Assembly: GCA_026419785.1 (NCBI GenBank)
Contig: JAODTK010004954.1
Location: 127,001 to 191,000, forward strand
Reading direction: 5' to 3'
Origin: Sclerodactyla briareus
Taxonomy: Eukaryota > Echinodermata > Holothuroidea > Dendrochirotida > Sclerodactylidae
DNA: 64,000 nt
The translations under genes were made by a program, and so were the position numbers. Under the pieces are notes generated by a model, which saw only the letters and a program-made list of their open reading frames with translations, made no database searches and was not told the DNA's origin. Positions 3,200-57,230 of this stretch are shown here, piece after piece (within the stretch, counting starts at the first letter, position 1; each line of letters opens with the position of its first letter).

Positions 3200-3298
3200 G
3201 TTGTCAGAAAGAGTCAAGGAATCACTAAGCCTTGGGCTCCTGGTTGGCACTCCATGTTGTACTGATTGCACGACGATAAACTCGCTACAAGAAGAGAG
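3200..3298 (+). pseudogene. Degenerate type-A cysteine-rich exon, left cluster
   Basis: The 3' part aligns with the exon at 3934: it reads GLLVGTPCCTDC in one frame, where 3934 reads GLFGPPCCSDC. It follows 'TAGCTATAG' as a possible acceptor and ends at GAG|GCAAGT, a GC-type donor. The upstream half has stops and has lost the first cysteines. After CCTDC a one-base shift is needed to follow the family frame. It is likely a decayed duplicate. Homology is supported by order of residues and by the shared end. Confidence 0.35.
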
Positions 3299-3617
3299 GC
3301 AAGTCAACATGTCGAGCTCGACCTCGTTTACAACAACCATATGTTCTATGGGATTACGAGAACCCGGCCAGCACACCCCCCCCCCCCCCCCTCGACGGAA
3401 CGGAGTATGCAGGTGTAAATACCGGTTGTACCTACCGTCCGTAAATCCATTAAAGTGCATAAGTTATTTGACATATAGTGATTATTCGATCTGCTCTCTG
3501 CCAATTTTTTATGTCGCCACACCGCAAAATATTCATCCCTCTTCCCGCTTGATACGCGTTCTCCATAATTTCGACTTAACAATGAAGGTTAGCTGAGCGG
3601 CTCTTCGTGCTCTGGTT

Positions 3618-3933: not shown

Positions 3934-4037
3934 GCAGCGAGTGTGAGTGTTCGTGACTTGTGGCCTCTTTGGCCCGCCATGTTGTTCAGACTGCACCGAC
4001 GAGGAACTCGGCTACAAGAAGCGACGGAACAATGGAG
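3934..4037 (+). CDS. Type-A cysteine-rich mini-exon, left cluster (partial gene)
   Basis: It is bounded by TTCTTTAG and GGAG|GTAAGT, both good splice sites. In the family frame it enters and leaves in phase 1 and encodes two early cysteines followed by TCGLFGPPCCSDCTDEELGY and KKR. That gives cysteine spacing C-x-C-x3-C-x6-CC-x2-C, allowing for one apparently missing base near 3956. Right-cluster copies at 46383 and 52600 keep these residues but use different third bases (GAC/GAT, TGC/TGT, ACC/ACT, AAG/AAA), as expected for a protein under selection. I do not recognise the family. A secreted disulfide-rich segment is a possibility. The one-base gap is either a real frameshift or an assembly error. 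Confidence 0.45.
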
Positions 4038-4298: not shown

Positions 4299-4389
4299 TG
4301 CACCGAATGTACGATGCTCCGGACGTTTTGCTCACTTACACCGACACGCGGGAAAACTCGGGGCTATAAGAAGCGCGAAAACAGCAGAG
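4299..4389 (+). CDS. Second type-A mini-exon, left cluster (partial, diverged)
   Basis: It is preceded by a pyrimidine-rich acceptor (CTTTCTCCAG) and followed by GAG|GTAAGTT, a strong donor. The frame is open across the exon and ends GYKKRENSR, matching the GYKKRRNNG end of the exon at 3934. The cysteine-rich middle is altered: only some cysteines are kept in one frame, and small shifts are needed to align the rest. It sits 262 bp after the previous exon, in the same orientation. Open frame plus good splice sites make it a plausible exon. The altered cysteine pattern could mean divergence or decay. Function unknown. Confidence 0.35.
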
Positions 4390-22150: not shown

Positions 22151-22159
22151 CCGATAACT

Positions 22160-29189: not shown

Positions 29190-29199
29190 CTGCACGTGG

Positions 29200-37210: not shown

Positions 37211-38349
37211 GGCCGACGGGCAGACGAATCAATGCTATCACTCGTATGGCGTTGGTTCATATCCGTGTGAATGGCATTTGGAGTAGGAAAACCCAACCCT
37301 CACATTCAGATCCAATATTGGCCACTGACAGTGCAAAGATTTTTTTTTTTTTTTTTCAGTGTAATTCCACAACGAAAAGGCACTTTGTTTTTAGCTGATA
37401 GTGCGAGGAAAACGTCTTCTCTCGGGCCTCCGAAGGGCAGTTTCCGGCGATTTGGGGAGTGGTAAAACCTCGAAAATTTCCGGCTTCGCTCCGCGCCTAC
37501 CCATGGTGGCGCTCGCTCAGGTGGTGACCCACGCCCTGTCCGCTACCCCCCCCCTCCCCCCCCCCCCCCGGTTGACAAATTCGGCATACGCTCCTGGTTC
37601 ACAAAAGTAAAGTATTTCCTGTATGCCGGCAGTGATTCTGATCAAACTCCACGCAGCGCCCTGTAGCGCGACCAAATGCAGCGCGCCAGCATTCAGGCAT
37701 GGGACAGGAATCTGCTAGTAAATTCACCCTAGCTGATGCATATGACGCAGTCCCGCACGTGGCCGACCATGCGTATTAGCAAGCCATACTTTACTTTCGG
37801 CTGGTATGCTACCCTGTGTAAATTTGACTATAAGAAGTCAGTTGATAGCGTGTACCGCATTACACTTGGAGAATCACGTCCGACGCTACAACCCTCGTGT
37901 CAAATAAAGAGAGAAAGGAACGAGAACCAAAATGTCACTAAAAGTAAGTCCATCCATTCTACTCTTGTCAAGGTTACATTCAAAGCCAAATTGTGATCCA
38001 TCAGATTCCCTTTACACTGACACAGGTAAAAGACGGAAATATGTATTCAAAATTTCGCATGAAAATAAATTATATTATTTTGCAATATCGTGAGAACGAT
38101 TTTGTAAGTTTTCATGTTAGCTACGGGGTTCAAGTACATGCTCAAAGCTACGCTCATGTCAATTTCCTATCTTTGAAGGCTGATGGTGACGTAACATATT
38201 TCCTTTCAACTAGCACGGGAGAAAGACGGCAATAGGTTTATGCACATGAAAATGTATCAGTTCTTTTACAAATTTGTAACAATTGTGTAAGTTTTTATCA
38301 TTATACGATCTATAGTAGTTACCACAGGTGTTCTCGAAATTACGTGTTT

Positions 38350-38815
38350 CAAACTATTGGTGCGTTCTTTCGAACTGGTAATACCGTATATACGAGATAA
38401 AACGCGTTCTTTCGGTACAAAAGTGGTGACTTTAAGTGGTAACTTTGGGAATTATCCAATGAACCTCCACTTCCACGACTTGTATCAAAATGGCGACCAT
38501 TCGATACTCTCCATGCAGAAATCGCGAGTCATTCCGAAATGTTCCATCTATAAAAAGGTAAATCATGTGAATAACTTATAGATGAGAATGTTAGGACCGG
38601 AATCATGCAATTGAATTGAAAAAATTATCGACGTATGAGCGATTTCACGCAAATTAGTGCAGCGTCGAACTTCGGAAAGCGAGGACTTCTCGCGGAACCA
38701 CTACTCTGTGCACTGCAATGACACAGTGGAGCCAGCTGTATTGGAAAAGTGTTGGGGTCGAGAGAACGCATTTCACCAGTTGGGAACTCGTATGTACGGT
38801 ATGTACGAGTTCACT
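38350..38815. mobile_element. Copy-specific ~450-bp segment, possible DNA element
   Basis: Copy 1 of the large repeat passes directly from AAACTA to CACTACAGGTCGTATACG (about 13538-13570). Copy 2 has about 450 bp extra. The left edge reads TTGGTGCGTTCTTTCGAAC. The reverse of the right side reads CTGGTGAAATGCGTTCTCTC, an imperfect inverted match. A deletion in copy 1 is the alternative. Confidence 0.35.
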
Positions 38816-40297
38816 ACGAGAACACTACGAGGTCGTATACGATTGGGAAACCGCGCGATTTCGAAAATTCGACGGGGCCTTATACGGTTCCTTCTCGCTC
38901 CAGTACTAGTGATACTCTCACATGGTATCCGGCAGTTTACATACCTGCAAGACCTTGGGGTGTCTGAAAGTTGGAAAAGTTCGTATACGGTAACTCCACG
39001 CCGTTCCCAAGACCAAGTGTATTTCAATTCACTGGCGCGCTCACGTCTACGATGGGCAAGTCGTTCTCAGCGACGCAAACCACTGCACACACACAATTTG
39101 TGTACAAAATGGAGGGACTAGGTGACCAAGATATAATACTATTCACACGTTTTTTTTTTAACATGAAAATTGAAAATTGGGCGAAAAACAGCCATGTGAC
39201 TGAAAGCATCATTCAGTGGAGTTTACACCCTGCAAGGACCCTCGTGACACAAATTTGCAAAACCACATGGGCAAGTATATTTTCTTTCCTCGAATTCGAA
39301 ACAATGCTTTTCCTAAAATCAATCACTGTCCCAGTTTAATCTACACAATTGTAGATTACTTCTGCTAAGCTCATTGTAAATGAAAATTCCGAACGTTCAC
39401 TGTGACTGGAAAGCTTCATTTCGACGTCGAATTCGGGTTTTCGGACGAATTATGGGACGGCCAGAAGTTTTGAAAAAGCACGTGCCATCATATTTTATCT
39501 GGTTTTCGACTGTCGAACGTTTCGTTAATAGGTATAGTGGATCTTTTTTATGGGATACTTGCCTAGCAGATCGAACCTACATAAGACTCAGTACCGGCAA
39601 TTATAGGGTGCTGGCCTGGATATACTCACCTTTCAGGCCCGTAGCCAACAAAATTTGGAGGAGTGGGTCCTTTTTCCAGTGTGGACTTTGCAAGAATTAT
39701 CCCTTGTCCATCATGTCGACCATGAAATAGTGCTGTCTCATTGAAACCATGGTAAACACTAGGTAATTCGAATTAACTGATTAAGACGAAGACTGAACAT
39801 GCTGATCTGAATTTCTGAAATCCGGTTCAGAAATATATTTCATCCTGCCCTTTCGGTATAGGGGCTGGAAAGCGAACCTTGTCCTTGCACAATTAATATG
39901 GGTGGGTCGATCGAACGCTCCGACACCCCTGGCTGTCACCTGCGAATCTTTCGCCAGGTGAACAGTATAAGGTCATGATTCAATGATTCAATGTGATTCA
40001 ATGAAGAAGTAGAAGTGACCAAACAGGCAGCCGCATGTCAGTTGCCTAACCCTCGTACATCCCTTCCCCAGTCTCTCATTGAGCACTCAGTGAGAAAGCC
40101 AGGCGTAACCGTTTCACAGCCCTGTATGAATGAACAGGCCGAGATTTGAATTCTTCAGGTCTTTCGGGTGGTAAGCAGATGCTCTGTGGTAACCACGCGG
40201 ATGAATATCGTATTGACATGATTGAGTGTTCCTACTAATGAGGTTTTATCGCGGGGAATTAATACTGGAATGTGCTAGGCTCCGGTTCGTAGCGAAC

Positions 40298-41057
40298 TAG
40301 CCTGTTGAAACAGGCGTTTGACTTTGCACACCTGCGTATCCGCCGCATTCACTATAGTGTAGGGTGGCCCTTTAACCAATCGGTGATTTGCCTAAACAAA
40401 CGCCTGTTGCAGTCGTTTCTGCTCGCTGTCGAGGGAATCATGGGCGGTGCTAGTGGGCGGTGCGACGTTCAACGTTGATTGCGCAATCGGACATTATTTC
40501 TTTCACTAAATTACGAGAAACGGCCATGTTTGCTGGAAAATTACTCTGTTGGTCGAATTGTAATTATTTAGAAACATCCAACAAGTTTCGGCATACGTTA
40601 GATGGATTTCTTTTTATTTGCCCATTTGAAGGATTCATATTTTTCTGAACGTCTGCGGCGATACCAAACAAGCCGCAATACGCCTGCGCATAGCCGAAAC
40701 AGTGCCTCGGTCAATTTTTAGGCTCAAAAGGGCATTATTCTTCGATCAATTCTCCTTTTCGGTGTTGTAAAATGTTAATGAAAGTCTTCTGTAAATATTT
40801 ATGACCTATATATTGGGCGACTTTCCTCCCGGAATCTATCATTGTTGCTCCCATCCATATCAACGCCCGTGTGCTACTGAGACTGACATCCACGACGTCA
40901 CCCTGAAACGTAATGAGCAAAATCCCAATTTTCTGGATTTGCCAAACGAAGTCCTGCAACGATATGTTGGTGATATTCGACCGTGGTATATATACTAAAG
41001 AGCGATAGCCCCCTCTATTTTAGGAACGGATTCTCCATATCGTCTGCTTAGAGGCTA
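40298..41057. mobile_element. 760-bp DNA element with 9-bp target-site duplication
   Basis: GTAGCGAAC flanks it at 40289-40297 and 41058-41066. The uninterrupted site GTAGCGAAC is present in copy 1 near 15123, so this is an insertion. The ends are TAGCCT (left) and AGGCTA (right), a 6-bp inverted repeat. Near the left end CAGGCGTTTG (40311-40320) is repeated inverted as CAAACGCCTG (about 40397-40406). A 9-bp duplication fits Mutator-like elements. An 8-bp reading (hAT or P) is possible if one base belongs to the element. The two short open frames inside (40460-40648 plus, 40735-40959 minus) are not recognised as transposase, so it is probably non-autonomous. Confidence 0.75.
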
Positions 41058-41869
41058 GTAGCGAACAGGTATGTTCGAGTATGCGTACGTGTATCAGTGT
41101 ATATGTCCTGTTTGCATGACTGTCCGTAAATTTCACCCATTTACATTTAAATGTTATGGTTTGATTGAAAAAGTTATCTATCTCTCTTTCGATATCCTAA
41201 AATGTTTTGAAGCCGTGGAATATTGTAGATATGAATTCTGAATATTCTGAATTCTGTTTTTTCTGTTACCTACCTGTTTTGTGACTGTTATGTGTTGCTA
41301 TATTTCCAGCGATTTTGCCATTCCAGTCCTTGGATACCTTGTTGTGAAAATAGTTTAAATTCAAGATTATCATGCTCCCCCCCCTCCAAAAATGATCTAT
41401 AAAATGAATCCTTCCTAATTTTCCTTCTTAAATTTATTTTTTTGTCTTCTCGGGAGGGAGGATTCGCTTACAAAATGAATTAGTAAAACCACTCTTCCTC
41501 TCTTCTTTTCCAGTCTCCAAATATAGGAAATTGTGGAAAAACTAGTGAAATGCCCAACTCTGTCGAGAATGGTCATTGCCTTTGAAAATCCATATTTCAT
41601 GTGAATTCAATCCAATTCCAAGGGGAGACCTACTCGATACAGTTCCCTGTTACGAAATTAGAACACCTTACACATTCAGAACATCGTAAATTTTTCTAAC
41701 TCTGAGAGTGAAGCTACAACCCCCATAAAAAATTATATTCTAGGTATTTGAATAATAAGCTAATGCTTTATGAATTCGTGCTTTGTTACGGAATATTGAT
41801 CCATTGGCCATCTACATCTACGGAAATTTAGGGAATCAAGAAAATCGTTAAAAACCCCAAGGTTTTCAC

Positions 41870-42245
41870 TCCAAAAATTCATGGACCTAATTTAAGTAGT
41901 TGTGGCGTAGTAATTACAATAGAAAATCGATAATTTGTGGCTTTCACCTTGTCGTAAATTTTGGAAATCGTTTGACCATTAAAAATATGGTTTAACAATT
42001 TCACAGCAGTTTTTGCAACAATTGTCGGGAACACTTGTACTTTGTGTGACTTTCCCCTCATTCCGCAAAATTGATATCGTGTCGATCGACAGCGGAACAA
42101 AACTGTAAAACCCTGTCTGCCTGTCTGTCTGTGACTGTCTGTCTGTCCATCCCGTCCGTCTGTCTGTCTGTTGTTAAATTAGCCCGCTAGCCTCACTGTG
42201 TGGAAATTGTGGGAACCTTTCATTGGCATCGAGTGAGCCTGTGGG
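41870..42245 (+). repeat. Unassigned flank with (CTGT)n microsatellite
   Basis: Tetranucleotide CTGT repeats with interruptions run from about 42113 to 42173. The rest is AT-rich with no motif. Confidence 0.6.
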
Positions 42246-42249
42246 TTAT

Positions 42250-43555
42250 GTAGGCTGTAGCGCATATTTGATATTTAATCCTTGTCTGGGAAAAGGACCA
42301 TGCGACAATCACTAATGCCCGGTATCTCGAAAGAAATAGTTTACATCACCAGAGATCTCCCTTCCAATACTTCATTGTGGGTTATCTCATTGCCAGATAT
42401 TACAATTCATCTTTACTGTAAAATTATATCGAGGTTAAGGCTCTCCCAACTCAGGGTATTAACACAAAAAACTAAATCCGCAGACAAAGAAACAACATTC
42501 ACTCATAGGCACACACAATTGCTCGAATTTACAACTTTTCCGTAGGTGAAAGGGCGCTGTCGGGTTCACAATGTATGTTCAATTGACAGGCCTACGTGAA
42601 CAGGCGCCGGAGCTGGTAGTAGGTGCAATCATATGCACCATGCCTTTTTTTAGCGTACTGGGCCGCCGTGGCATCAGTCAGGGAAATTCATCAAGATTTG
42701 TCATCGCAACCGTTTGCTATAGCGAACAGTAGAGTAATATACTAGTAATAATAGCATAACTTTCTGCGATAACAGGCGATACCAAGCTTTCCGAATTATA
42801 CATTGGGTGTTGAGGGGGCATGTGCGTGGTGTGTGTACGTGTGCTTTTGTGTGTGCCCATCTTTTTTTCAAACGTTTTTCTCGCTAATATGTCCGAGTTT
42901 GAAAGGACTCAGACTGTCCAAAATTTTAATACACGAGTGTAAAGCGTCACAAATACACTATTCTTTCAAAATCAGGCAGTATTGTACATTTGGGGAATTT
43001 AGGGAAAAGATAGCCTTAACTCGTTCTTATCGGTTGTTGTTCGACATTTGCATAAGTATGACGCAGCATTCGTTCGAGGAAGCACTCATCATTGAGTTTT
43101 TTGTCCCTGTTTATTGTATACCAATAGGTGTAAATCGCCACTGACGAACTTGAGTTCGAAGAGCGCTCTATAATTGTTTTTTTTGTTTGTTTTTTTCATA
43201 TTCCTACAGATCACTCTCCTGTTCATGATGTTGGTGCTGCTGGTTTCGATGGCATCCTTGACCACTTGGTAACTTTGAATTCTCTGTGAAATAGCCATGT
43301 TGCTCACACAACCTTGAGGATTATTAATTCCAGGCTCTAAGGAAAGAATCTAGAGAAAAAGAACAGCGTCTTGTGTGCTGAATTGAGAGTGAATTGCTCT
43401 ATCTAACCTCTCCCTACTGTGTGACTGTGTGGTTCATATACCAGGCCACATCGTGTTTAAGTAGAATAGCCCAACGGAAACATTGTCAGTGTATTGTGCC
43501 CCCAAACCATTTTATTGTTAGCATAATTGAGCTAGTTATGTAAGCGAAAGATAAT
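42250..43555. other. Start of duplicated block; no gene recognised
   Basis: Near 42535 the phrase CCGTAGGTGAAAGGGCGCTG followed by TCGGGTTCACA recurs at 47577 and 48368 in variant form, each time with a GTAAG-like or GTGAA-like donor context. It could mark a decayed exon end, but no coding frame is visible. Confidence 0.3.
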
Positions 43556-43559
43556 GATT

Positions 43560-45075
43560 CTTTTTTCCGGAGCAGGCCTGGTTAAAATAGCTTACTCACT
43601 TTCGCAGACCACACTCCTAGATGTGAATTTATAACATCACGAGTAACTGAAGCCAATTCTTTAAAAAGGTGAGCTCGTACTAGAGTTGTGCAAACGGAAC
43701 ATATCCTAATCTTCTGACCAATGGCCCGGTCACCGTGGCGCTCCCAATCATCCAGTCACTATACACTATAATATATATGGGGGGGCACTGCCCCCCCCCT
43801 CACGAGACAAGTATCTCGGTACGCGCCTGATCGGCTTGGTGTTGATGCGCAGGAAATTATTCCAAATGAGTTGTTTTGAGGATATCATCATGATAGTAAT
43901 ATCCTCCAAATACTCACTTTGAGTCAAATTCCAACACTTTGATGATTGCATACACAAAACTAATAATGTGCTTACCTATAACACCAAACTGAAAATTCCT
44001 TCTGATATGCTCGTCGTTGCATTTCTATCTTTTAAATCGTTATGCCCTTGATGAGTCTCACCCAAATCCCCGGTCTTGCCTGAATAATCGGAACTTCGAT
44101 TGTGGTGGTTGTTTTTCGTCTCCAAAACAAAATATGCGAAATGGTAATCTAACAACTTCTTCTTCTTTTCCTCCTCCTTCGCTTCTTTCCTCTTTTCCTT
44201 TGTCCTTTTCCTTTCCTTCTTCTCTTTTCCTTCTTATCATTCTTCTTCTCCTTCTTCTCTTCTCCTTCTTCTCCTTCTTCTCCTTCTTCTTCTTCTTCTT
44301 CTTCTTCTTCTTCTTCTTCTTCTTCTTCTTCTTCTTCTTCTTCTTCTTCTTCTTCTTCTTCTTCTTCTTCTTCTTCTTCTCCTTCTTCTCCTTCTTCTCC
44401 TTCTTCTCCTTCTTCTTCTCCTTCTTCTCCTTCTCTTTCGCCTTTGCCTCCTCCTCCTGCTCCTTCTTCTTCTCCTTCTTCTTCTCCTTCTTCTCCTTCT
44501 TCTCCTTCTTCTCCTTCTTCTCCTTCTTCTCCTTCTTCTTCTCCTTCTTCTTTTGGAATGGGTAAGGTGAAGACCGTGTTCTGCTCAGCTGATAGAGGAA
44601 AGGGCTGTTAGCTAGACGAAAAACAAATTCCGGGGAACAATAGGTCGGGTGTATACAGGTTACCGGTATCTTTGAAGCATGTAAAGGATCGATTGAATTA
44701 TGATGGAACAACGTTCTTTCCAACTGGGTCAATTCTATTTTTCACCTGCATGTTTTCTGACCTGTGAGCCGATTTATTACTTGATTAATTTGTCACCAGA
44801 AGGCGATGATTACGAATATACCGAGTAATCGTCTCAGAATCAGTGAACATATTTCGGAAACAAACTGCTTTCGACATCTCTTTTGAACTGTTAAAGACTG
44901 ATCCCTAATGTTCAATTTTCCAAAACGTAAGCATATTGTGTTTTTGGTGTTAAACTTATATTGTTTCTGTTCTGCAACAATATCGTATATGCCCTCAGAA
45001 CTTCATAGTCAGATACATTTCACATCCATCCCCCCGCCACCTCTAGGACCATGCTCCATGTTGGCCTATATTTTA
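43560..45075 (+). repeat. Duplicated block R4, copy 1
   Basis: Matches 48880-50310. Shared phrases include GGCTGGTTAAAATAGC, GTTGTTTTGAGGATATCA, AGCTGATAGAG, ACAAATTCCGGGGAACAAT and CAGAATCAGTGAA. It contains the large TTC tract, which is short in the other copy. It precedes the mini-exon array, as copy 2 also does. Confidence 0.75.
44161..44553 (+). repeat. Large TTC/GAA triplet tract
   Basis: About 390 bp of TTC with TCC interruptions. The pure part runs about 98 bp (44283-44380, roughly 32 triplets). The sister locus near 49606-49645 has only a short version, so this copy expanded after duplication. Open frames of poly-F or poly-K/E over it are artefacts. Confidence 0.9.
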
Positions 45076-45440
45076 GGCTAATCGCCATAATTGACTGTAA
45101 AAGAGAAAAGGAATTCCCCTGGTCCCTGGGCTGGTAGTAACGGAATTCTGACTGGAGTACCACAAACTCTGTCGTCCTACCTCTCCGTTCGCAGCCGCCA
45201 CTTTAGGTGGGCGGGTGGCGGTCCGGTTTTTGGGTATCTGAGCATCCTCCCACTCCAGGGAAGGGTTGTTGGGTTTTGGGCATCAGTATTGCAAGGTGAG
45301 TTGCCGGGTCCATAACGAGATCAAGTGGGGAGGGTCGTTGCCATATTATGAAATGTCGTTTATGCCTAGTCGACGTACAGGGGGGGGTGGTTGGGTGGCG
45401 GTTATTGATTGGCTATTCTTTTCTTCCCTCGGTGTCACAG

Positions 45441-45493
45441 ATAACGTCAACTTCCGAGCGTTCAATAATATGACTGCGGATCAACCCACTTCC
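45441..45493 (+). CDS. Type-B mini-exon, copy B1 (partial gene)
   Basis: It follows the acceptor CGGTGTCACAG and is followed by GTGAATACC. It begins ATAACGTCAACTTCCGAGCG like the other B copies but is 53 bp rather than 48, with extra bases after TTCAAT, and the end reads CCCACTTCC rather than CCCACGCC. In the family frame the shorter copies read DNVNLRAFNVTADHPR, where the first codon is completed by the previous exon. This copy is frame-disturbed. It lies 225 bp before exon A1. Function unknown. Confidence 0.35.
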
Positions 45494-45717
45494 GTGAATA
45501 CCTTGAGTTATTTGTAACAAATGTACGTTCCGACGTAGGAACGTAAATTGGTGAAAGCGCATTCAGCTCTCGGTAAGCGGCTTATGGAAGATATGTAATG
45601 TACGATGAGAAATATTATATCCACATACGAGCGTTATCATTACTTGAAAATCACCTACATTCTCCACCTTGCGATGTTGGCACATTCTACCTCTATTTCA
45701 CTGTCATGCTTCTACAG

Positions 45718-45817
45718 GCGAACGATTGTTCCTGTGCTTATGCCTGTGGTGTGCTTTGGCACCTCCTGCTGTGCGATTGTACTGACGATCAACTCAACTA
45801 CAAGAAACGAGATGAAG
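45718..45817 (+). CDS. Type-A cysteine-rich mini-exon, copy A1
   Basis: It follows a good polypyrimidine acceptor (TGCTTCTACAG). The frame containing the early cysteines (NDCSCAYACG) runs through DCTDDQLNYKKRDE to the end. Compared with the other A copies it has one extra base near the start and lacks a G in the CC-x2-C region, so only five of six cysteines are in one frame. The donor reads GAAGTTAGG, one G short of the usual GAAG|GTTAG. These changes are single-base and could be assembly errors. The alternating B-A-B order with neighbours supports an exon rather than chance. Confidence 0.4.
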
Positions 45818-46230
45818 TTAGGTTACTGGAGCGTGAGGGGATCAACGTCAGTGGGAAGGCTGTCATTATATTCGAGACCTACTATTAAACCTAGACCTAC
45901 GAGCATTCAGCTGGAAAAGAAGAAATAGGAATTCTGCTAGTAGTGCACGCTGTTGTCTACCTCTCCGTTCGCACCGCACTTCAGGTGGGCGGGGCGGTCG
46001 GTTGGGTATTGAGACATCCTCCCACTCATGAGGACATCCATCCACCCGTCTGGTCAAGGAGGGTTGGTAGGTGGTCATCAGTATTGCAGGTGAGTTTGCG
46101 GGTTCTCAACGAGATCAGTGTGGGTAGTTTGCACAAGAATTGCATGGTCGTTACGATGGTGGAAGTGAGCGGGGGGGGGGGGGGGGGGGGGGATTGCTGT
46201 GGCTAATCTTTTTCGTTTTCGGTGTCACAG

Positions 46231-46278
46231 ATAACGTCAACTTACGAGCGTTCAATGTGACTGCGGATCAACCACGCC
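46231..46278 (+). CDS. Type-B mini-exon, copy B2
   Basis: Exactly 48 bp between CGGTGTCACAG and GTGAATACC. It needs one base from the previous exon (G from GAAG|) to start with GAT and leaves one base (C), so it is phase 1-1. It encodes 16 residues beginning DNVNLRAFNVTAD. This copy reads CAACCACGCC at the end where B3 reads CACCCACGCC. It is 105 bp upstream of A2. A symmetric exon of this kind can be duplicated without frame change. The protein family is not recognised. Confidence 0.5.
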
Positions 46279-46382
46279 GTGAATACCTTTAGTTATTTGT
46301 ATCATTCATTACTGAAAATAACAGTCTACACCTTGCGGATGTTTGCACATTCTACCTCTATTTCACTGCCATGCTTCTACAG

Positions 46383-46479
46383 GCGACGATTGTTCATGTG
46401 CCATGACCTGTGGTCTCTTGGCCGTTATGCTGTGCGGATTGTACTGACGAGCAACTCAACTACAAGAAACGAGAGGAAG
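46383..46479 (+). CDS. Type-A cysteine-rich mini-exon, copy A2
   Basis: It runs from TTCTAC|AG to GAAG|GTTAGT. Entered in phase 1 it reads DDCSCAMTCGLL at the start. The end in the family frame is DCTDEQLNYKKREE. Two single-base gaps (in CTTCGGCCCGT, where this copy reads CTTGGCCGT) shift the middle, so the exon is 97 bp against 99 for the family consensus length. Copy A3 has both bases. At synonymous sites it differs from the left-cluster exon at 3934 while keeping cysteines and the KKR. Alternatives: a decayed duplicate or a sequencing indel. Confidence 0.5.
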
Positions 46480-46609
46480 GTTAGTTTACTGGAGCGTGAG
46501 GGGATAAAGTCTCAGTGGGAAGGCCTGTAATTATATCTGAAACTAATATTAAATCTAGACCTAACGAGCATTTCAGCTGGAAAAGAAGAAAATTCCGGCG
46601 TCCGTAGTG

Positions 46610-47060
46610 TAATTGGAACTCTTCGTCAACCTCTCCGCATAGCACCGTCGCACCTAATCCTAGGTGGCAGGTGTGAGTCTCCGAGAATCCTCCACTTAGG
46701 AGACGCCAATCACTGTCTTGCCCCCAATGGGGTGGGGGGTTTTTTAGTTGGCTCAGTAGTGCAAGTTGAGCATGCCGAGTTCTACCTAGATCAGTGTAGG
46801 TGTTTATTGGAATGCTTGTTACGATATAAGCAGGGTGGGAGGTCTTGCTGTGGCTAATCTTTTTCTTCTTTCGGTGTCACAGATAACGTCAACTTACGAG
46901 CGTTCAATGTGACTGCGGATCACCCACGCCGTGAGTGCCTTATTTGTAGACGCAATGTACGTACGTTCCGACTGTAGAGCGATAAACTTGTGGAAAGTAG
47001 CGTTGTAAGCCCACTCAGCTCCGTGTACGATGATATTCCGCAAGTGTGATATCAGCCAAC
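46610..47060 (+). repeat. Spacer module of the mini-exon array
   Basis: The sequence between A and B exons is itself repeated. Copies lie at about 45100-45600, 45930-46310, 46610-47060, 53870-54060 and 55140-55620. Shared phrases include GGTCAACCTCTCCG or a variant, CATCCTCCCACTC, GTATTGCAAGTTGAG and TTACGATATAAGCAGGG. The whole A-spacer-B unit was therefore duplicated, not the exons alone. Confidence 0.75.
46883..46930 (+). CDS. Type-B mini-exon, copy B3
   Basis: Best copy of type B: 48 bp, acceptor CGGTGTCACAG, donor CGCC|GTGAGTGCC. Encodes DNVNLRAFNVTADHPR with the first codon completed by a G from the upstream exon and one C left over. It is preceded 403 bp upstream by exon A2. No A exon follows within 5 kb. 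The next recognisable one is at 52600 after an intervening copy of the R4 block. Confidence 0.5.
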
Positions 47061-47064
47061 TGAA

Positions 47065-48875
47065 TGATCCAAATGTTGGTTGTGACAGTGTATGCTGACA
47101 ATAAAGACCGGAAATAGAGACCAGCGTTCATGTTCATCCGATTTAAACTGCAGGAGGACAAGCATTTTTCTGTGTATTTTCACAAAATGGCTTAAATCGC
47201 CACCCAGATGCAACAAATCGCAAACAGCAAACGCAAACAAATCGCTCCGCAGCATTTGGCAGGATCGCCAGAACTCGCACGGCATGGCAACGACAAATAG
47301 AAGTTTTTCACGGTTGCATGCGCGCACACTCACACCGGAACAAAAATCGGCTGTAGCCTAAACGAAATTTCCCTAATTGCGATATCATTGTCCGGGTATA
47401 TTCAAGCTGCTACCATGCACTCTCTCGAAACAAAGCCATGCACCCTGTATAATTATCACACTATTGTAATGCAACTGTGAACAGACTTATTCTCGAGAAC
47501 ACATAATGCCAATTACTTTATCTTTCAAACCAGCCTACCCATCACACGAGGAGATCATTCTATATTTTCACTCTTCCGTAGGTAAGAGGAGCTGTCGGGT
47601 CAGTAGCGTATTTTGTGAACTTATGCGCTTCAGTACAGCACAGCCGGTACTTCAATGGTTCTAATCATGGAGCTATCGTATTAACTGGAGCGGTCGTGAG
47701 CCAGTGTTTCATGGTTCAGTTTGGCAATTCGGGGACTATTAGTGGAGGCAAAACGGCCGTGGGGCTGCACTATTTCATATTACACACCGATTGCACGTTT
47801 CAGCACAGCATATTAGTCGCCATGGAAACGAGTATTGTATGAACCAATTTGGCACTATTATGTGAACACGAGTTTACACCTTGTGTGTAGACACTCAAAA
47901 CGACTGCAAATAGTGTCAGAGTTCCTCCAACCGGTAATTCAAAAACAGAAAGCGGACGCGTTTTGCGGGGAGCTCAAAAGTATAGTGCAACAAAAATGCA
48001 ACTCGATTACGTCTGACAGGAACATCATCAAGGCTGAAATACAGCCTTACAGAGCGAAGAAGAGGCTGATTAATTCATTTCAATTCTACGAGTACAGAGA
48101 GCCTGGTCAGGTTCATTAAGAAGCCCTAGCCGTGAAAAAAAAAATTATCTAGGATGATCGACCAGTGCTCAGATGGTATCGGGGCCGCGGCGTACCCAAT
48201 TCAATCTGCTGTGTTGGCTTGTCAAATTTAACTGATATCATTCTGCCATTTTTCTGCAGAGTGGCATCGTAGAGTGGCATCGTAGAGCTTCAATATTGTG
48301 GAGTTGTCGAGCAAAACTTTATAGTTGTAAATCACATAAGGAGATCCTTGTACATCTTTACACCTTCCCGTGTGTAAGAGGGCGCCGTCGGGTTCACATT
48401 GTAAGTTTCGTTTCACGTAGAAATGCAGCCAACATGAACTGGTGAATGGGCGCTCGAGTACTAGGCCTACAGCACAGACGGGATCCGGTTAGAATCATGG
48501 GGATTCTATCAACTGAAGCGGGGACATTGTGTGCCCTATTCACAGTCCCGTCAGAGACCACAAACTCAAATTGAGAAGTTGCACCAGCCACATGGTGTGT
48601 AGCATAAGGAAACGCATTCACTTTTTACTTCCATTATGAACTTTTTCTACACATTACATGCACCGATGCATTGATGCGTCATAGTGCAAGACCCTCGGAC
48701 AATCTTCAGTGCGTGTATTTCGTTTTAAATACACTGAAAATAAACTCTGGCGTCAACTGAATCATTACGGAAGCATGAAAACAACATAGTAGTAGTAATT
48801 TGAGTCTCGTCTATCTGACATGCATTAGCCTCCGCCACTTATCACGATCTGTTGTTGCTCTTGAATTGCGACGTT
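47065..48875. other. No gene firmly recognised; one weak open frame
   Basis: Open frame 47835-48119 (94 codons, plus) has a balanced, charged composition (for example FCGELKSIVQQKCNSITSD) and no low complexity. I do not recognise it, and no splice or promoter context decides. Two related stretches at about 47640-47700 and 48470-48540 repeat each other. A 15-bp direct duplication GAGTGGCATCGTAGA lies at 48257-48286. Confidence 0.3.
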
Positions 48876-48879
48876 ATTG

Positions 48880-50310
48880 TTCCGAGCAAGGCTGGTTAAA
48901 ATAGCGTACTCAATTCGACGACACTAAGGCTAAGTTTCGAAAACATGACGTGTTGCCATAATATTTTTTTGTTCTTGATTTTCTACATAGCAACGCCGAT
49001 CCAGTATATCGTGGGATTGCTGGGGCTAGCTCCACACTGACTTCTGCTCTGCCTAGGCGCCGTCCAGTGCCGCATGTCCGTCTGCTCAGTGGCGTACCCA
49101 CGGGGGTTCACAACCCCCCCCCCTCCCCACCTCATGACCCCAAGTTGTCAATTCATTTTTAACACGAAAACTTATTTTTGCAGTTTAGTAGAAGTTTGCA
49201 GCTGTATTTACAAAATATTGCAGCAGCATGTGCATAGGGGCCCAGAATTTATTATTTGCCAATAGGGAGGGTGAGGCCATATATGAGGGCGCAATTCCGT
49301 GGGTTTCAACTAACCCCCCCCCACCCCCCCCCCCCCCCCACCCCCCCCCCCCCCTCCCCCCTCCAACGAGACAGGTCTCTCGGTACCGCGCCTGCGGGCT
49401 TCGTGTCGATGTGCAGATTATTCCCAATGGTTGTTTTGAGGATATCACGATGATAGTGAATCCTCGAACTACTCACTTCGAGTAAATTTAAACACTTTGA
49501 TGATGGCATATACAAACTGATTTAAAGTGTTACTTACCTCTCACCCAAAATGCAATTCCTTCTGGTATGCTCGCGTTGAATTCCATCATTCGTTTCTTAT
49601 CTTCTTCTTTTATTTTCTTCTTCCTCTCTTCTTCTTCTTCTTCTTGGCAGGTCCAGATGAGGGGACCGTGTTTTGCGCAGCTGATAGAGAGAGGGTTGTT
49701 AGCTAACGATAAACAAATTCCGGGGAACAATGTCGGGTCGGTCTACCGTTAGATTTGAAGCCGTCAAGGATCGAATCCGATTTGAATTTATGATTGAACG
49801 TACTTTCCAACCTGGGTCAATTCTATTTCTAACCTGCATATTCTGGCATGTTGCGATTTACGTTTCGTAAATTGTCACGCAGAGCGAGGGTACGAATATT
49901 CCGAGTACATAAATCATGTACATATTTTATGTACCGGTATTCACAAATTCTGCTTATACACATGTGTTAGAAAAGCGAATACCTTTTTAGGTATATAAAC
50001 AGATCGAGGATTAACATGTACCTATCATATATGGTCTTCGGTATATCATAAACAAGGAATCAAACATCATAAAAAAAAAACAGAATCAGTGAAACTATTT
50101 CGGAACACTGCTTCGATATCACTTTTGAACGTGTTAAAATAGCTGATTACTCTATATCAAATTACCAAACGTATACAGTATTTTGTTTTTGTTAAACTTA
50201 TAGTGCTTTTTGTGCTCAGTATATATCGTATATGCCTAGAATCATAGTCAGATTAGTTTCGCGTCCATCACCCGCAACCTCCAGGACCCTGCTCATGTTA
50301 GCTTATATTT
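48880..50310 (+). repeat. Duplicated block R4, copy 2
   Basis: Second copy of 43560-45075 (phrases listed there). It differs by a C-rich stretch at 49314-49363, a short TTC tract, and about 160 bp of extra AT-rich sequence at about 49915-50080 that copy 1 lacks. Confidence 0.75.
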
Positions 50311-50319
50311 TGGGGGAGG

Positions 50320-52520
50320 GCAATGATGGGAGGGGTGTTTCGCGCGCTTTGCCATAGTCTTTGTACCCCACCATCGATCGCGCCCCCCATAGAGTAGGCG
50401 CTTTGGCTGTCTAGGGAAATTATTTATCACCTGTCCTATGGCTATTGCGTGTATGGGGGAAGGGGTGCGGTACGATTGCATGTTCCCGTGTACGCTGTGG
50501 CCGGTAACCTATCACTTGCCTATTGTAGAGCAGTATTGGAGGCATGAATACGGCCTATACACGGCATTAGGGATCGATATTTAGTCCCGATTCGCATAGA
50601 GTCGCTTATCTTCTGCAACAATGTCGGGTGGTATACCGGTAGAGAATCTGTTTGGAGTTTTGCATATCAAACTTTTATAATTCTGAAAATATATGAAAGA
50701 AGGAATTCATTACCTTCTTCGCGACTGCGCGATTCGTTTATGCGTATACAGAATGCCGGCAAACTGTGTAGGGTAACATGGGCGACCATTGCCTTGGTCC
50801 CCTAGTGACTGGTTCATCAAAGTAGGATTCCCTAATTATTTGGTAGTAGAAAGAAATGACTCCGCAAGACCACATGCTTGAATCAACGTGTGCTAGGAAT
50901 CCATTGTTGCAATTGCGGGTTCGGTACCCAAGTGAAAAAATCGTCGAGTCCCGTGAGCATGAAGATGTGGCCCAGTCGTCTGGACATGTCGTATTACCAA
51001 CAGCCCTAGCGTATAGGCCCAAATCAGCACATGTTAACCAATGCGTAGCGGAGGCGTATCAGCGCGAATGAATTATACTGGAATATCTTCCCCTAAAAAG
51101 CCAATCCACATGAAATATTCATGCTGTTGCATTTTCATTGTCTCTTCGCATGAACTGCAGTGTTTTCTCCTTGTGAAACAAACGTTCGTTTTCGTGAATA
51201 TGTGACTTTCACATCCAGCCCGACATGACGGCCAAAATATGTTAAAACTGGGGAATATTACATATCTGAAAAAAGTGTTTTCATCAAAATCAAAGAATAT
51301 GTGTACATTCGAGGACCCAAGTATATTTTCTTTCCTCAGAATACGGCGTCACCCACTGTAATGCATATACTTATGTGTCTATCCCTGGCCCCAGATGTAA
51401 CGTTGGTAACATGGACGGACATTTCCCTACCTACAGTGATATGTTGGCTTGCGAACAAATGGTCAGATCATGCGAGCCAATCAAACATTGGTGTTACATT
51501 TGAGCACAATGTTCCGGCTGACGTGGAATTTTTGAAAATCCTCCTTGACTTTTTTTGTAACGTATATAACATGGACGGACAAAATGCGTTACGTTGGACC
51601 GGACACTATACTACCTCTTCTGCGATGCTAAATGTTATATTCAAACAACTTCTGTTGTCATTATAAGAAAGGAACTGCTCTAAGCTACATTGAAAGGTTT
51701 ACCTTTTGATATCCTCCTAAAAAATCATTAGATATTTCATAATTATGTTACATACGTTACAATTTTGTGGACGGACATTTCTGTGGTGGCATTTAATAGT
51801 CAGTAACTTCAAAACTATTAGCAAAAGTTCTTAACTCCTCCTTTAACCCCTCCCTGGGTTTTTGTTTGAGCAATAAAGGGTTAAAATGGTTATGTAAACA
51901 AAAGTGCTGGGTTCAACGGAAAAAAAGGGCAGGTGAATGAACGCGTGTAACATGTTGGAGGGACACTGTTACATAAGTTACATGTACAAACATGTGTCTG
52001 TAGAAAGCACTTCCTTCATTAATACCTTATTTGAAGAGTTTATATTTTATTTTTAGATGCTGTCAAGTAAGGAAACCTAATAGGACTGTGAGCTTGGGGG
52101 TCACCCTTTATCTTGACAGAAAATTCCTGAGCAATTGATGTCACAAATAAGGAGCTTTATATCATGCAGATATGAAAATAAAATCTCCCCAAAATAAAAT
52201 GCAATGTAAAAATATTGTCATAATTGTTCTATTACTTTTTGACCTGTAAATCACTTTTTAACAACATGTCACTTATATTTATAGCAGATTTGGACTGAAT
52301 TCCCGTCCCTCAAACAGTTTGACATCATTTGTACCCCATGACCGTGGAAAGGCCCTTTTTTTTAAAATATAAAATATTAGGTCTGGTGTTATATGCATAC
52401 ATGACATGAGGCCTTATCTGACAATCCACAAATCCAGCGATGGTAAGAAGATTGGAGTTGTCTTTAAAAAAAAAAAAAGTTCTCTTCATAACGGGCCAAA
52501 GAGACCCATCATCATCATTA
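50320..52520. other. No gene firmly recognised; one weak open frame
   Basis: Open frame 51301-51666 (121 codons, plus) has no low complexity but includes the repeated nucleotide phrase TAACATGGACGGACA (about 51409 and 51569; a variant GTGGACGGACATTTC lies near 51769). That suggests repeat-derived sequence rather than a gene. 51670-52500 is AT-rich with no motif. Confidence 0.3.
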
Positions 52521-52599
52521 CTGAAAAGAGTCAAACGGTCTACACCTTACGAGTGAGGGCAACATTTCTACATTGATTTTACTCTTCAAACTTCTACAT

Positions 52600-52695
52600 G
52601 GCTACGATTTTCATGTGCCATGACATGTGTCTCTTCGGCCCGTTATGCTTGCGGATGTTTACGACGAAGAACGCAACTACAAGAAACGAGAGAAG
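52600..52695 (+). pseudogene. Type-A mini-exon, copy A3 (damaged acceptor)
   Basis: It aligns with A2 from GCTACGATTT to AGAAG|GTTAGTTTACTGG. The acceptor reads CTTCTACATG rather than CTTCTACAG, so the splice site seems lost. It keeps CTTCGGCCCGTTATGC, which shows that the two bases absent in A2 belong to the family. Further small losses near GCTTGCGGATG and TTTACGACG disturb the cysteine frame. Probably a decayed copy, or one affected by assembly noise. Confidence 0.4.
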
Positions 52696-52861
52696 GTTAG
52701 TTTACTGGAGGTAGAGGGATCAACTGTCAGTGGGAAGGCTGTAATTATATCTGGAAACTAATATTAAACTAGACCTACGAGCATTTCAGCTGAAAAGAGG
52801 AAAGTAAGAGGAACTCGGTAGTAGTACAAGGTTCGTCTACCTCACGTTCGCACCTCACTTT

Positions 52862-53876
52862 CAGGGGCGTCGGAGCCTTTCGAAAAAGCAAAGTGGGGGG
52901 GGGGGGGCACATCTAATGCAAAGGACATCTAAGCGTAGCGCCACATCGGTTGGCGCGGGGCTTACAAAGAAAATTTCGGATTTTCATACACTCCAGATCG
53001 ACGGACACGGCATTGCCAAAGCTCAATAGCCACCAATCTAAATGTGTGATTGATTGAAAAACAGACAACAGAAGTGTCATTGTGCATAATAGATGATTTA
53101 CCGAGTAGCCAACATGAGATTTGTATATTACCCTTTTATACTCTGGCTTTGTTGCGTGGGTCCAGGGGTATATCGAACGGTCTATGGTGGGATCGAGGGG
53201 AAAGCCATAGGCGTACGGGGACAACTCAAATTTGAGCAGAAAATGTATCCCAAATTTTACAAGTCGGTCATGAAAAACTAGCAGCGCGCGTCGAAGCGCG
53301 CGAAAAAAAATGCAGGTTTCGGCATTTTATCCGAAAAAGATGCAAAAAATTCAGGCATTTTTTCACTTTGCTTTTTTCCTTCCCAAATTTTCACGAAATT
53401 TGGCATTTTCATCTCAGAAGAAGAAGGGGGGGGGGACAGTCTTCCCACAAGGCTTCTGAAATTAATCGAGGGAACGAAATGGTTCGAAGCATTACATCGC
53501 ATATTTAGCATACAAAGCCGGGAAGAAAAACGCCATTGCGCGCGAAACACTTAAAATTTATGAACTCTGGGGATTCGATTTAGGAATTCGAGAACCGGTT
53601 ATGAAGCAGGTATAATCCTCCATCGGCCTAGTCCGGTCCAGATCTTCACCTGGGTGGCAGCACCTGGAATATTATGTGGACTTAAGAAAATTTCAAACGG
53701 GATTAGCGGTGTTAGACAAAAATTGAATCAGTTTAGAGTGATACAACATCGGCATGTGCCATTATTTTTTTAAGACGGTCCGGAAATGTGGGGGGGACAA
53801 ACGATATGAGATCACACCCCACTTTGAACAGTGGGGGGGACATGTCCCCCGTCCCAACATGTTGACGCACATGCTG
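52862..53876 (+). mobile_element. ~1.0-kb non-autonomous DNA element, copy 2
   Basis: Same element as 28163-29189, of nearly equal length. The left end is CAGGGGCGTCGGAGCC and the reverse of the right end is CAGCATGTGCGTCAAC. CACTTT flanks both sides (52856-52861 and 53877-53882). Related spacer modules (45197, 45975) read CACTTTAGGTGGGCGG or CACTTCAGGTGGGCGG without interruption, so the element inserted into the mini-exon spacer. Confidence 0.8.
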
Positions 53877-53955
53877 CACTTTAGGTATGCGGTGGGAGGT
53901 CCGGTTTGGGTATCTGAAACATCCTCCCACTCCATGGGGACGCCCACCCACCCGT

Positions 53956-53971
53956 GCGAATCACCCACGCC
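53956..53971 (+). pseudogene. Remnant of type-B mini-exon, copy B4
   Basis: Only the last 16 bp (GCGAATCACCCACGCC) of a B exon are present, followed by GTTGATAAT where the others have a GTGAGT-like donor. The upstream part of the exon and its acceptor are missing. The spacer jumps directly from CACCCACCCGT into it, so a deletion is likely. Confidence 0.4.
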
Positions 53972-54201
53972 GTTGATAATGTGTTATTTGTAGACACAAT
54001 GTACGTCCGACGTAGGAAAGCGGATTTAATGGTGAAAGTGCAATCTCTTTCGTAAGGAGCTATATCAGTAGGTAAGTACGATGAGAAAATAAATTATAGG
54101 CCAACAACGACGTTATCATTAATGAAAAAAAACCAAAAAAGTCTAAAACTTACGGATTGTTGGCACATTCTGCCTCTATTTCACTGTTTCATGCTTTACA
54201 G

Positions 54202-54301
54202 GGCGACGCGATTTGTTCATTGTGCCTGACCGTGGTCTCTTCGGCCGTTAGCTGTGCGGATTGTACTACGAGCAATCTCAAACTACAAGAACGAGAGGAA
54301 G
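54202..54301 (+). CDS. Type-A mini-exon, copy A4 (frame-disturbed)
   Basis: It follows ATGCTTTACAG and ends GAAG before GTTAAG. It contains the family stretches ATTTGTTCATTGTGCCTGACC, CTCTTCGGCC and TGTGCGGATTGTACTACGAGC, with several one-base indels, so cysteines fall in different frames. Length (100 bp) and borders match the family. It is followed by an insertion (about 54355-55070) that separates it from B5. Conserved borders with a broken frame suggest recent decay or poor base quality. Confidence 0.35.
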
Positions 54302-54354
54302 GTTAAGTTTACTGGAAGCGTGAGGAGACTTAACTGTCAGTGGGAAGGCTGGTC

Positions 54355-55070
54355 ATTAATCCCCGCGACACTGGAAGTGTCCGGGGGGAGGAATTATGGT
54401 TTTGGGTGTGAGCCGCCGCCGCCGTTCCAAGCTCCGCCGCCGCCAGAACTTTAATAACTCTCATAACGCTTTATCCGGTGACTGAAACTGGTAACAGTCC
54501 CCCTGGTGGAATCCCAGATGAGTTCGAAAGTGGGCCATAAATGCAATGTGGGGGCCGCTAATTTGCCATTATTTGCGCGAAATTTTTCAAGTTAGTCAGA
54601 TTTGAACGAATAATTGGTGGGTAGGACTATAGTTGATCCCGGTAAATGTGGAGGTTTTTCAAGGTCATCGGAGGTCAAATTTGCGAATTTTCCGATTTTT
54701 CCAACTTCGTCAATTGAAACGAAACTTTGTTGGACTGGACTATAGTGATCCCCAAAAATGTGGAGGTCTTTTCAAGAGTCTCGGAGGTCAATTTTGCGAA
54801 TTTTTCGCGCGATTTTCCCAACTTGTCAGATTTGAACGAAACTTGGGGGGATGGGGGCTACATTTGTTAAAAGTCATTTCAAAACCATCGTGGGTCAAAT
54901 TTGCATAAATCTTGGGCCTATTACCCTCCATGGATTATAACAGAATTGGTGTATGAAGTTTATCTGGTTCTGCCAAAATGGGGGTCTTATGGAGGTGTTA
55001 GATACTTTTCCCGATGCTTGCTCAGAAGCGGGGGATATACACGTGGGCGTTTTTACCCGCCTACACATGT
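54355..55070. mobile_element. Inserted segment with GGCGGC-rich start
   Basis: Elsewhere GGGAAGGCTGTAATTATATCTG is continuous (46518 and 52733). Here GGGAAGGCTGG and TTATATCTGAAAC are separated by about 700 bp. The insert starts near a GCC-rich stretch (54408-54448, GCCGCCGCCGCC), contains three ~125-bp tandem units (54540-54910) and ends near CCCGCCTACACATGTCTAG. No target duplication was resolved. Confidence 0.55.
54540..54910 (+). repeat. Three ~125-bp tandem units
   Basis: Each unit carries GGAGGTCAA.TTTGCGAATTT, then TTTTCCAACTT.GTCA, ACGAAACTT and a GG-rich phrase with ACTATAGT. Open frame 54633-54908 follows the repeat and is not taken as a gene. Confidence 0.75.
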
Positions 55071-55432
55071 CTAGTTATATCTGAAACTAATATTAAACCT
55101 AGTACCTAACGACATTTCAGCTGGAAACGAAGAAAATCCCGGCGTCCGTAGTGTGATTGGAACTCTTGGTCAACCTCTCCGCCCGGCGCCTACTTCTAGA
55201 TGGGCGGTGGACTGTCCGGTTTGAGTCCTCCGATACAAAGCTCCTCCCACTCTATGGAGACGCCCATCACTTGTCTAATTGTCAGTGGGTGGTAAGCTTG
55301 GCCTCAGTATTGCAAGTTGAGCAGACGAGTTCGACCAGATCGTGTAGGTGGTTATTGGAATGCCTTGTTACGATATAAGCAGGGCGGAGGTCTCTGAATG
55401 TGGCTAAGTCTTGCGCTTTACTTGAGGTTCAG

Positions 55433-55485
55433 GATAACGTCAATTAACGTCATTTTTATTAAAGTGACTGCAGATCACCCACGCC
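55433..55485 (+). pseudogene. Type-B mini-exon, copy B5 (diverged)
   Basis: It aligns from AG|GATAACGTCAATTAACGTC to CACCCACGCC|GTGAGTGCC. The donor side is perfect, but the middle (ATTTTTATTAAAGTGACTGC) is altered and an in-frame stop (TAA) appears. The acceptor has lost GTGTCACAG and reads GAGGTTCAG. It probably no longer codes. Confidence 0.4.
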
Positions 55486-55639
55486 GTGAGTGCCTTATTT
55501 GTGATAGAAGAATGCATGTACGTCCGAGGTAGGAAAGCGATGACATTGAGTGAAAGTTGCGTAGTAAGCCCACTCAGATCAGTGGTAACGAGCTTTTCAG
55601 CAAGTGTGATATTACCAACTGAATGATCCGAATGTCGTC

Positions 55640-56340
55640 ATGAAAGTGTATGTGACAAGCTCGAAGTCGCACGAGTGACTCGATGTGAATGCAGGAGCAG
55701 GAATGGCTCAACTTTAAAATTTAAAATTGGAGCATCCGGAGGACCCGCTGGGACATGTCCGGGAATCAGGGGCGTCGTGCAAAAAAAAAAAAAATTTTTT
55801 GGGTAGGGGGGAATCAGCAGTAATGATTATCTAAGCCGGGCGCCACAACAGTTGGCGCGCAACATACATACAAATGTGCGTCAGATAGCAAGAAAGTCAC
55901 TTACCACTATCCCGTTTCCTATGGAAGAGCAACAACCGTAGAATTTACAGAAACTTCCAACTCTCTTATGTCGAGAAAATTCTCGAAAGATACAGTTGAT
56001 AGGCTTCTGGCTTCAATTCACTTCTTTCGGCCTAAAATATTCAGTTGATAGGATTCTTGCTGCAATTGAACTTCTTCGACACCTCTTTAGTTTAGTCATC
56101 ACAGAGGATATTACCAGGGGGTTGGTTCCACAATGATGGTTTCAGTATTGCCAAGAAAAATATGTGAATAAATGCGGTCGTGATCTATCTAAGCTTCGCC
56201 ACACCATTGGTTGCAGGCGTTCCCATTTTAAAGTGTTCTCCGTGGCCAAAATGGGGAGCTCCAGATTATCATTTCCATTCCAAAAATCATTAGAATAAAC
56301 TTAAATTTGAGAGGGGATGAAAAAGGGGAATTTCATTTTT
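55640..56340 (+). repeat. End of array; core-motif units and 60-bp duplication
   Basis: Two core-type units lie at 55840-55858 and about 56196-56218. A ~62-bp direct duplication at 55990-56080 shares CAGTTGATAGG.TTCT, GCTTCAATT and CTTCTTTCG-like sequence. No coding signal. Confidence 0.5.
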
Positions 56341-56344
56341 CCCG

Positions 56345-57230
56345 GACGATAATAAAAATAAACGAGGCACATGCCCGTTTCGTATCACTCACAACTGATT
56401 CAATTTTTGTCTAACCAAACAATAATCGCGTTGGAAATTGTCTAAGTCCACTAATTTCAGGTGCGGCCCCAGTGAAGATCGGGACCCAACTAGGGCCGAT
56501 TTTAAATCGAATAGCCAAAAGTGCATAATTTTTCAAGTGTTCCGCGCGCAATGGCGTTTTTCTTCAGGCGTTGTAGGCTAAATATGCGATGTAAATGCTT
56601 CGAATACATTTTGTTTACTTGATTAATTTCAGAACCCTTGGGTGGCAGACCCCCCCCCCCCCTGCCCCCCTCCCATTTTTCTGAGGTGAATAATTCGGGC
56701 GAAAATTCGTGGACAACTTGGAAAGGAAATTAAGTTAACAAAAATATGCCTGAATTTTTTTCAGACTTCTTCGATGAAATGCCCGGAAACATGCAAATTT
56801 TTTCCCCGCGCGGTTAGTTTTCAATGACTGAATTCGGGTAGGCTTACACTTCTTATGCTCTCTAAATTGGAATGGTTCCAGTACGCCTATGGCTCTTCCC
56901 TTCGATCCACCAGAGACCGTCGGGGTTAGACCCTGGTCCCACGCAACAAAGCCGCAAAGAAAAGGTAAAAAAAATCCATGTGTGATATCGGTAAATGATC
57001 TTAGTATGCACAATGACAACTTTTTGTCGGTTTTTACTTAAATCCAACATGTAGAGAGGTGATATTGAGCTGGCAAGTGCTGTTTCCGTCGATCAGGAGG
57101 GTATGAAAATCCGGAAAATTTTTTCGTACGCTTCGCGACAACCAGATGGGGCGCTTCGCTAGATGGTCCATTTGCTTCGATTGTCCCCCCCCCCCTCCCA
57201 CTTCCAAAACGGTCCAGGACGCCTGTGTAA
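56345..57230 (-). mobile_element. ~1.0-kb DNA element, copy 3 (reversed, one end missing)
   Basis: The reverse complement matches 28163-29189: CAGGCGTCCTGGACCGTTTTG end near 57225, the CGATCCACCAGAG region near 56910, and CGGGCATGTGCC at the other side. The terminal G-rich inverted repeat on the 56345 side is absent, so this copy is truncated. The open frames inside are not conserved. Confidence 0.7.

Follow-up and report, generated by a model that had tools for sequence, protein, structure and literature searches.

A tandem array carrying a putative cysteine-rich, phase-symmetric exon in the sea cucumber Sclerodactyla briareus

A stretch of 64,000 nucleotides from the genome assembly of Sclerodactyla briareus (GCA_026419785.1, contig JAODTK010004954.1, our C2519, bases 127,001-191,000; hereafter the window) contains an array in which two short exon-like segments, A and B, recur in alternation. 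This repetition is far beyond chance, and it is best read as the duplicated exons of an orphan cysteine-rich gene, an explanation that we consider, as a whole, reasonably probable. A gene of unknown family on the forward strand would carry a small exon, A, with phase 1 at both borders, coding for a cysteine-rich segment of about 33 residues, approximately C-x-C-x3-CGLFGP-x-CC-x2-CTDEELxYKKR. Older, diverged copies of exon A would lie near 124.8-131.4 kb of the contig. A unit of about 650 bp comprising A and a short coding segment B would have undergone tandem duplication, introns and all, at a second place (contig 172.4-182.5 kb, window 45.4-55.5 kb), where insertions would later have broken into the array. 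Phase symmetry in A would let the gene take on extra copies with no frame shift. What is observed is the tandem duplication itself, the existence of relatives of A and, in A, a likeness limited to the exon and a mostly silent change.

Self-comparison revealed that the repeated element is the entire unit of about 650 bp, arranged head to tail with its introns. The flanks were inspected at all nine segments of the array, which fall into two blocks:

45166..47101, forward strand: first block of repeat units, introns included
45441..45493, forward strand: B1, 53 nt, preceded by CACAG and followed by GTGAAT
45718..45816, forward strand: A1, 99 nt, preceded by CTACAG and followed by GTTAGG, with the open frame ANDCSCAYACGVLWHLLLCDCTDDQLNYKKRDE
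46231..46278, forward strand: B2, 48 nt, preceded by CACAG and followed by GTGAAT
46383..46479, forward strand: A2, 97 nt, preceded by CTACAG and followed by GTTAGT, with an internal frame break as assembled
46883..46930, forward strand: B3, 48 nt, preceded by CACAG and followed by GTGAGT
52511..55658, forward strand: second block of repeat units, broken by a dispersed repeat of about 1 kb (52865-53879) and an insertion of about 0.7 kb
52600..52695, forward strand: A3, 96 nt, its 5' end placed by alignment, preceded by CTACAT (the acceptor AG being lost) and followed by GTTAGT
53955..53972, forward strand: B4, a 3' fragment only, aligned from 53955 and followed by GTTGAT
54202..54301, forward strand: A4, 100 nt, preceded by TTACAG and followed by GTTAAG
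55433..55485, forward strand: B5, 53 nt, preceded by TTCAG and followed by GTGAGT

The units were delimited by alignments of 45166-46304 with itself and of 45637-46289 with 46306-46941, followed by 52511-52803, 53955-54358 and 55072-55658. The pair 45637-46289 and 46306-46941 agrees at 75.3% over 685 columns (E = 1e-101); with gaps left aside, identity is 0.98 in B, 0.92 in A and 0.81-0.93 in the segments between them. Exon copies therefore lie head to tail together with flanking intron, and A and B alternate because the whole unit, similar introns included, was duplicated. A preliminary description of this DNA had reported five B segments of 48 bp alternating with four A segments of about 99 bp. 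These segments are present in the sequence, but the array is less regular than claimed: B measures 53, 48, 48 and 53 nt with B4 a fragment, and the lengths of A (99, 97, 96 and 100 nt) match the phase ascribed to it only if one-base assembly errors are assumed.

The surroundings of the array are themselves repetitive. A longer duplication (43791-45077 and 49353-50314) lies just upstream of both blocks. About 400 bp of CTT/CTTCTTCTC repeats (44156-44552) directly precede the array, and a shorter TCT run (49597-49645) occupies the corresponding place before the second block. The dispersed repeat of about 1 kb has three copies, at 52865-53879, 56334-57191 (reverse strand) and 28165-29195; two of these, one interrupting the array and one following it, are inverted relative to each other and separated by about 2.5 kb.

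Relatives of A outside the array, together with its pattern of change, argue with moderate strength for A being a coding exon. The following were identified:

3934..4037, forward strand: A0, a diverged relative of A with a good acceptor and the donor GTAAGT; VTCGLFGPPCCSDCTDEELGYKKRRNNG
Contig 125,257-125,355: a diverged relative of A, from DNA and protein comparison
3222..3302, forward strand: a weaker A-like segment (SLSLGLLVGTPCCTDCTTINSLQEERQ) with no donor seen
4299..4389, forward strand: a weak A-like segment ending in ...YKKR.. before GTAAGT
Contig 124.8 kb: a weaker A-like relative

A0 first came to light as a DNA match (77% over 71 columns, E = 9e-8), and its protein comparison with A2 gave E = 6e-8; its acceptor scores 9.1 (good) and its donor 11.7 (very good). 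Local alignments of A0 with A1-A4 extend from position 3 or 4 to position 91 or 96 of its 104 bases, while the 60-bp flanks of A0 and A2 are close to random, with 23 and 34 of 478 random pairs scoring as high. Since A0 and A2 are alike inside the exon and hardly outside it, the likeness is exon-limited. Over a 17-codon stretch unbroken in both, which was picked after the alignment had been viewed, there are 12 differences, five of the nine changed codons are silent and 13 of the 17 residues are kept (dN 0.15, dS 1.4); the next frame gives dN 0.31 and dS 0.28, and the third contains a stop. Across the whole exon, mismatches with A0 at the three codon positions number 8/3/11 in A1, 8/4/9 in A2, 7/7/9 in A3 and 10/4/6 in A4, positions near the 5' end being misassigned because A0 has a frame break there. 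These counts fit coding in A1 and A2, weakly so in A3 and not in A4.

The splice-like borders, unlike the repetition, are not beyond chance on their own. Although the three junctions named in the preliminary description (45493/45718, 46278/46383 and 46479/46883) exist in the sequence, the border motifs that it listed recur only in part. CACAG precedes B1, B2 and B3 (three of five), whereas B5 has TTCAGG and only the 3' part of B4 is left; GTGAGT follows B3 and B5 (two of five), with GTGAAT after B1 and B2 and GTTGAT after B4. Likewise, CTACAG stands before A1 and A2 but is replaced by CTACAT in A3 and TTACAGG in A4, and GTTAGT follows A2 and A3 but reads GTTAGG in A1 and GTTAAG in A4 (two of four in each case). 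Splice-scoring matrices assign high scores to the acceptors of A1, A2 and B1-B3, at a level reached once per 416-1391 bp of the window, and to the donor of A2 and A3, at a level reached once per 1641 bp. The donors of B are weak in all five copies, scoring 4.8 in B3 and B5 (about one per 206 bp by chance) and at most 1.1 in B1, B2 and B4. Exon-like pairs, defined as an acceptor and a donor 40-110 nt apart with an open frame, were compared with those in 10 first-order Markov sequences. At the loosest threshold, 184 pairs occur on the forward and 120 on the reverse strand against 92-138 per Markov sequence; at the middle threshold, 30 and 13 against 7-19; and at the top threshold, passed by A2, five and none against 0-3. 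Such pairs are thus somewhat enriched on the forward strand.

Reading frames agree locally and break over longer distances. As assembled, the three frames of the join B1-A1-B2-A2-B3 contain 3, 6 and 2 stops. Taken singly, the junctions A1-B2, B2-A2 and A2-B3 are closed by one or more stops in every frame, and only B1-A1 has a frame, one of three, that stays open; the joined open A-B frame described previously is accordingly confined to one of four junctions, which may reflect assembly error. Locally, B2 continues into A2 as R-DDCSCAMTCG, and PVVSWPLCCADCTDEQLNYKKREE inside A2 continues into B3 as D-NVNLRAFNVTADHPR; with both halves of A2 agreeing with their neighbors, one frame break inside A2 separates them. 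A lone G stands before the donor in A2 (GAA G/GTTAGT), A0 (GGA G/GTAAGT) and the 4299-4389 relative (AGA G/GTAAGT), and a 5' frame starting two bases in is common to A0 (SECECS) and A2 (DDCSC). A0 and A2 thus agree on phase 1 at both ends, and A behaves as had been proposed, yet these ends are mutually out of frame as assembled in both copies. For B, the previously adopted frame is the only one free of stops throughout B1, B2 and B3, but B is of phase 1 only if GTGAGT or GTGAAT is a donor. That B is spliced with A, and that the copies are transcribed, are predictions from the DNA.

Whether the breaks stem from the assembly or from decay can be approached through histone genes. Our genome searches covered 319,486,128 bases in 3,171 contigs, and their match counts are lower bounds, only the best candidates having been scored. 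For histones, seven candidates were scored and gave four matches, all partial; the frameshifted copies lie as follows:

Contigs C1362, C2362 and C2876 (loci L011-L014): frameshifted histone H3 and H4 copies

In frameshift-tolerant alignments of six H3/H4 copies, one copy, incomplete at 67 residues, requires a single frameshift step; the other five require 8-11 each, or 2.5-2.7 per 100 bp. From the latter rate, about five one-base gaps per 100 would be expected between two copies, and four array pairs show 5.5, 4.7, 6.9 and 7.0. Because the gap density of the array is that expected from the histone copies, assembly error is its likely cause. An actin search gave 16 matches, the longest unbroken over 134 codons; in other copies, adjacent fragments differ in frame. 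Most one-base gaps in the array appear more likely to be assembly errors than decay, although this is shown for no single gap. Some copies, namely A3 without its acceptor and the fragment B4, are probably dead whatever the error rate.

The opposite interpretation, in which the one-base gaps are real and the entire array is a non-functional, decaying tandem duplicate of a once-coding exon, strikes us as rather unlikely. It would account for B1-A1 being the sole open junction, for the lost acceptor of A3 and the truncation of B4, and for the insertions that break the second block. Nevertheless, A2 and A4 differ by 12 gap columns of 103 with no mismatch at all, a pattern hard to obtain by decay, and a similar gap density is found in the histone H3 and H4 copies. 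It is also improbable that neither A nor B is exonic and that a non-coding tandem repeat acquired splice-like borders by chance. Exon-like pairs are indeed common in the window, but the diverged relatives resemble A only within the exon and differ from it by mostly silent change, and A0 has a better-scored acceptor-donor pair.

The status of B is less secure. Its right border is doubtful, given a weak donor in all five copies and a likeness running past it in three of four comparisons: similarity to B3 continues beyond the border in B1, B4 and B5, for at least 32 bases, and stops early in B2, whose unit has a deletion there. B may be the start of a terminal exon rather than an internal mini-exon, the repeats being the 3' ends of tandem gene copies, a possibility that we take seriously while giving it well under even chances. 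The codons CGT GAG TGC would then mimic a donor, which scores 4.8 at best, and the frame would continue through CLIC to a TAG about 45 bases on. Two copies do continue, through RRECLIC and then RRNV (B3) or DRRMH (B5), to a stop:

46885..46977, forward strand: B3 read past the supposed donor, NVNLRAFNVTADHPRRECLICRRNVRTFRL, then a stop
55434..55532, forward strand: B5 read past the supposed donor, ITSINVIFIKVTADHPRRECLICDRRMHVRPR, then a stop

In contrast, this reading is lost as assembled in B1, B2 and B4, with a stop after REYL in B2. Furthermore, the gaps between B2 and A2 (104 bp) and between B1 and A1 (224 bp) leave little room for a promoter and a first exon per gene, and likeness beyond the border would also be expected from recent duplication.

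A 460-bp DNA query gave at least six genome matches and the B3 peptide at least two, all inside the array; the A0 peptide gave at least three, all on C2519. A hybrid A-B peptide gave at least eight at E ≤ 10: seven lie on C2519, with E no higher than 0.17, and the other lies on C418 (E = 1.95). The last was taken as chance, as were weak matches at contig 246,871 (E = 0.50) and 249,741 (E = 0.066); apart from the first of these two, genome and contig comparison yielded no relative of B outside the array. In Pfam, no family reached E ≤ 1 in the six frames of 42001-56999, where frameshifts lower search power, or in the three forward frames of contig 117,001-127,000 and window 1-9999. Sub-threshold matches to NADH_dh_m_C1 (A1, E = 0.056), DUF4971 (a hybrid, E = 0.031) and bHLH-TF_ACT-like_plant (A4, E = 0.036 and 0.026) were disbelieved. 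One PDB sequence search returned nothing at E ≤ 10; the sole match of another, to tail tip protein M at E = 1.9, was attributed to chance. Among viral contigs one stretch, and among prokaryote genomes 28, matched a pattern, none confirmed as a relative. Peptide words from the array found no match in a literature search, and the window contains no Rfam family and no tRNA. The repeat of about 49 residues, reported as unrecognized, likewise lacks a trusted match in Pfam and PDB; the further claim of an undescribed gene family goes beyond what those two databases show.

The cysteine spacing of A and B presumably resembles that of a RING-type zinc finger, with paired cysteines in A (CADC) and just past B (CLIC). 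We regard membership in the RING families (Pfam PF13920, PF14634) as very improbable and rejected it on the profile cut-off. No family reaches that cut-off, the array peptide has no histidine in the expected place as assembled, and without a hand-inserted histidine there is no match or only zf-RING_5 at E = 0.79.

Several observations weigh against our preferred explanation, the duplicated exons of an orphan cysteine-rich gene. The 13 of 17 residues kept in the hand-picked stretch, in the frame adopted previously, were reached by 279 of 20,000 permutations, a value of only 0.014; the 5' half of A0 itself can be joined to its 3' half only through one frameshift, and A4 lacks a third-position excess. 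Conservation of exons within the array does not clearly exceed that of introns. Moreover, one-base gaps number 1.2 to 6.8 per 100 in twelve other repeat pairs of the window, so that the array is only slightly outside, the unbroken actin stretches show that errors are patchy rather than uniform in rate, and the frameshifted histone copies could be pseudogenes. There is no family match in Pfam or PDB and no gene start was found; beyond A, protein self-comparison of contig 166-184 kb for other exons of the gene yielded nothing but dispersed repeats, long duplicates and a small number of weak matches. On balance, the preliminary description correctly saw a repeated small coding exon of phase 1 that could be gained in tandem, the evidence for the coding nature of A being moderate; it overstated how regular the array is, how many borders are good, how far the frame is open and how secure B is.

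Elsewhere in the window, a long direct duplication (12359-15875 and 37217-41854) spans about 3.5-4.6 kb at 77-81% identity, with related protein fragments elsewhere. A 14-15-bp tandem repeat (CCGGACAATTCCAC or its complement) occurs at 21774-22152 and 34828-35140, in opposite orientation and 13 kb apart.

Tandem duplication of phase-symmetric exons is a general mechanism. One paper related to it deals with COE factors (PMC2394523). The present case shares with this mechanism an exon, A, apparently of phase 1 at both ends and array copies lying head to tail with their introns; it differs in that two segments were possibly duplicated as a pair, and in that the copies are partly broken and only putatively expressed. 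Ordinary tandem duplication of a segment with a symmetric exon probably accounts for the array, which lies where one-base errors abound in the assembly. A more specific proposal, that a lineage-restricted small cysteine-rich domain on phase-1 mini-exons is gained and lost as A or as A-B pairs, with the number of repeats of about 33 or 49 residues varying between individuals, is unlikely. The analysis indicates that mini-exons spotted by eye in a noisy assembly can be put to the test when their contig also carries distant relatives, and that an open frame in any one copy is not to be trusted in such an assembly, the frameshifted histone copies being a warning for any gene reading here. If the exons are spliced, the gene would join those orphan genes that grow as symmetric exons are duplicated in tandem, and would be a useful case of change in repeat number.

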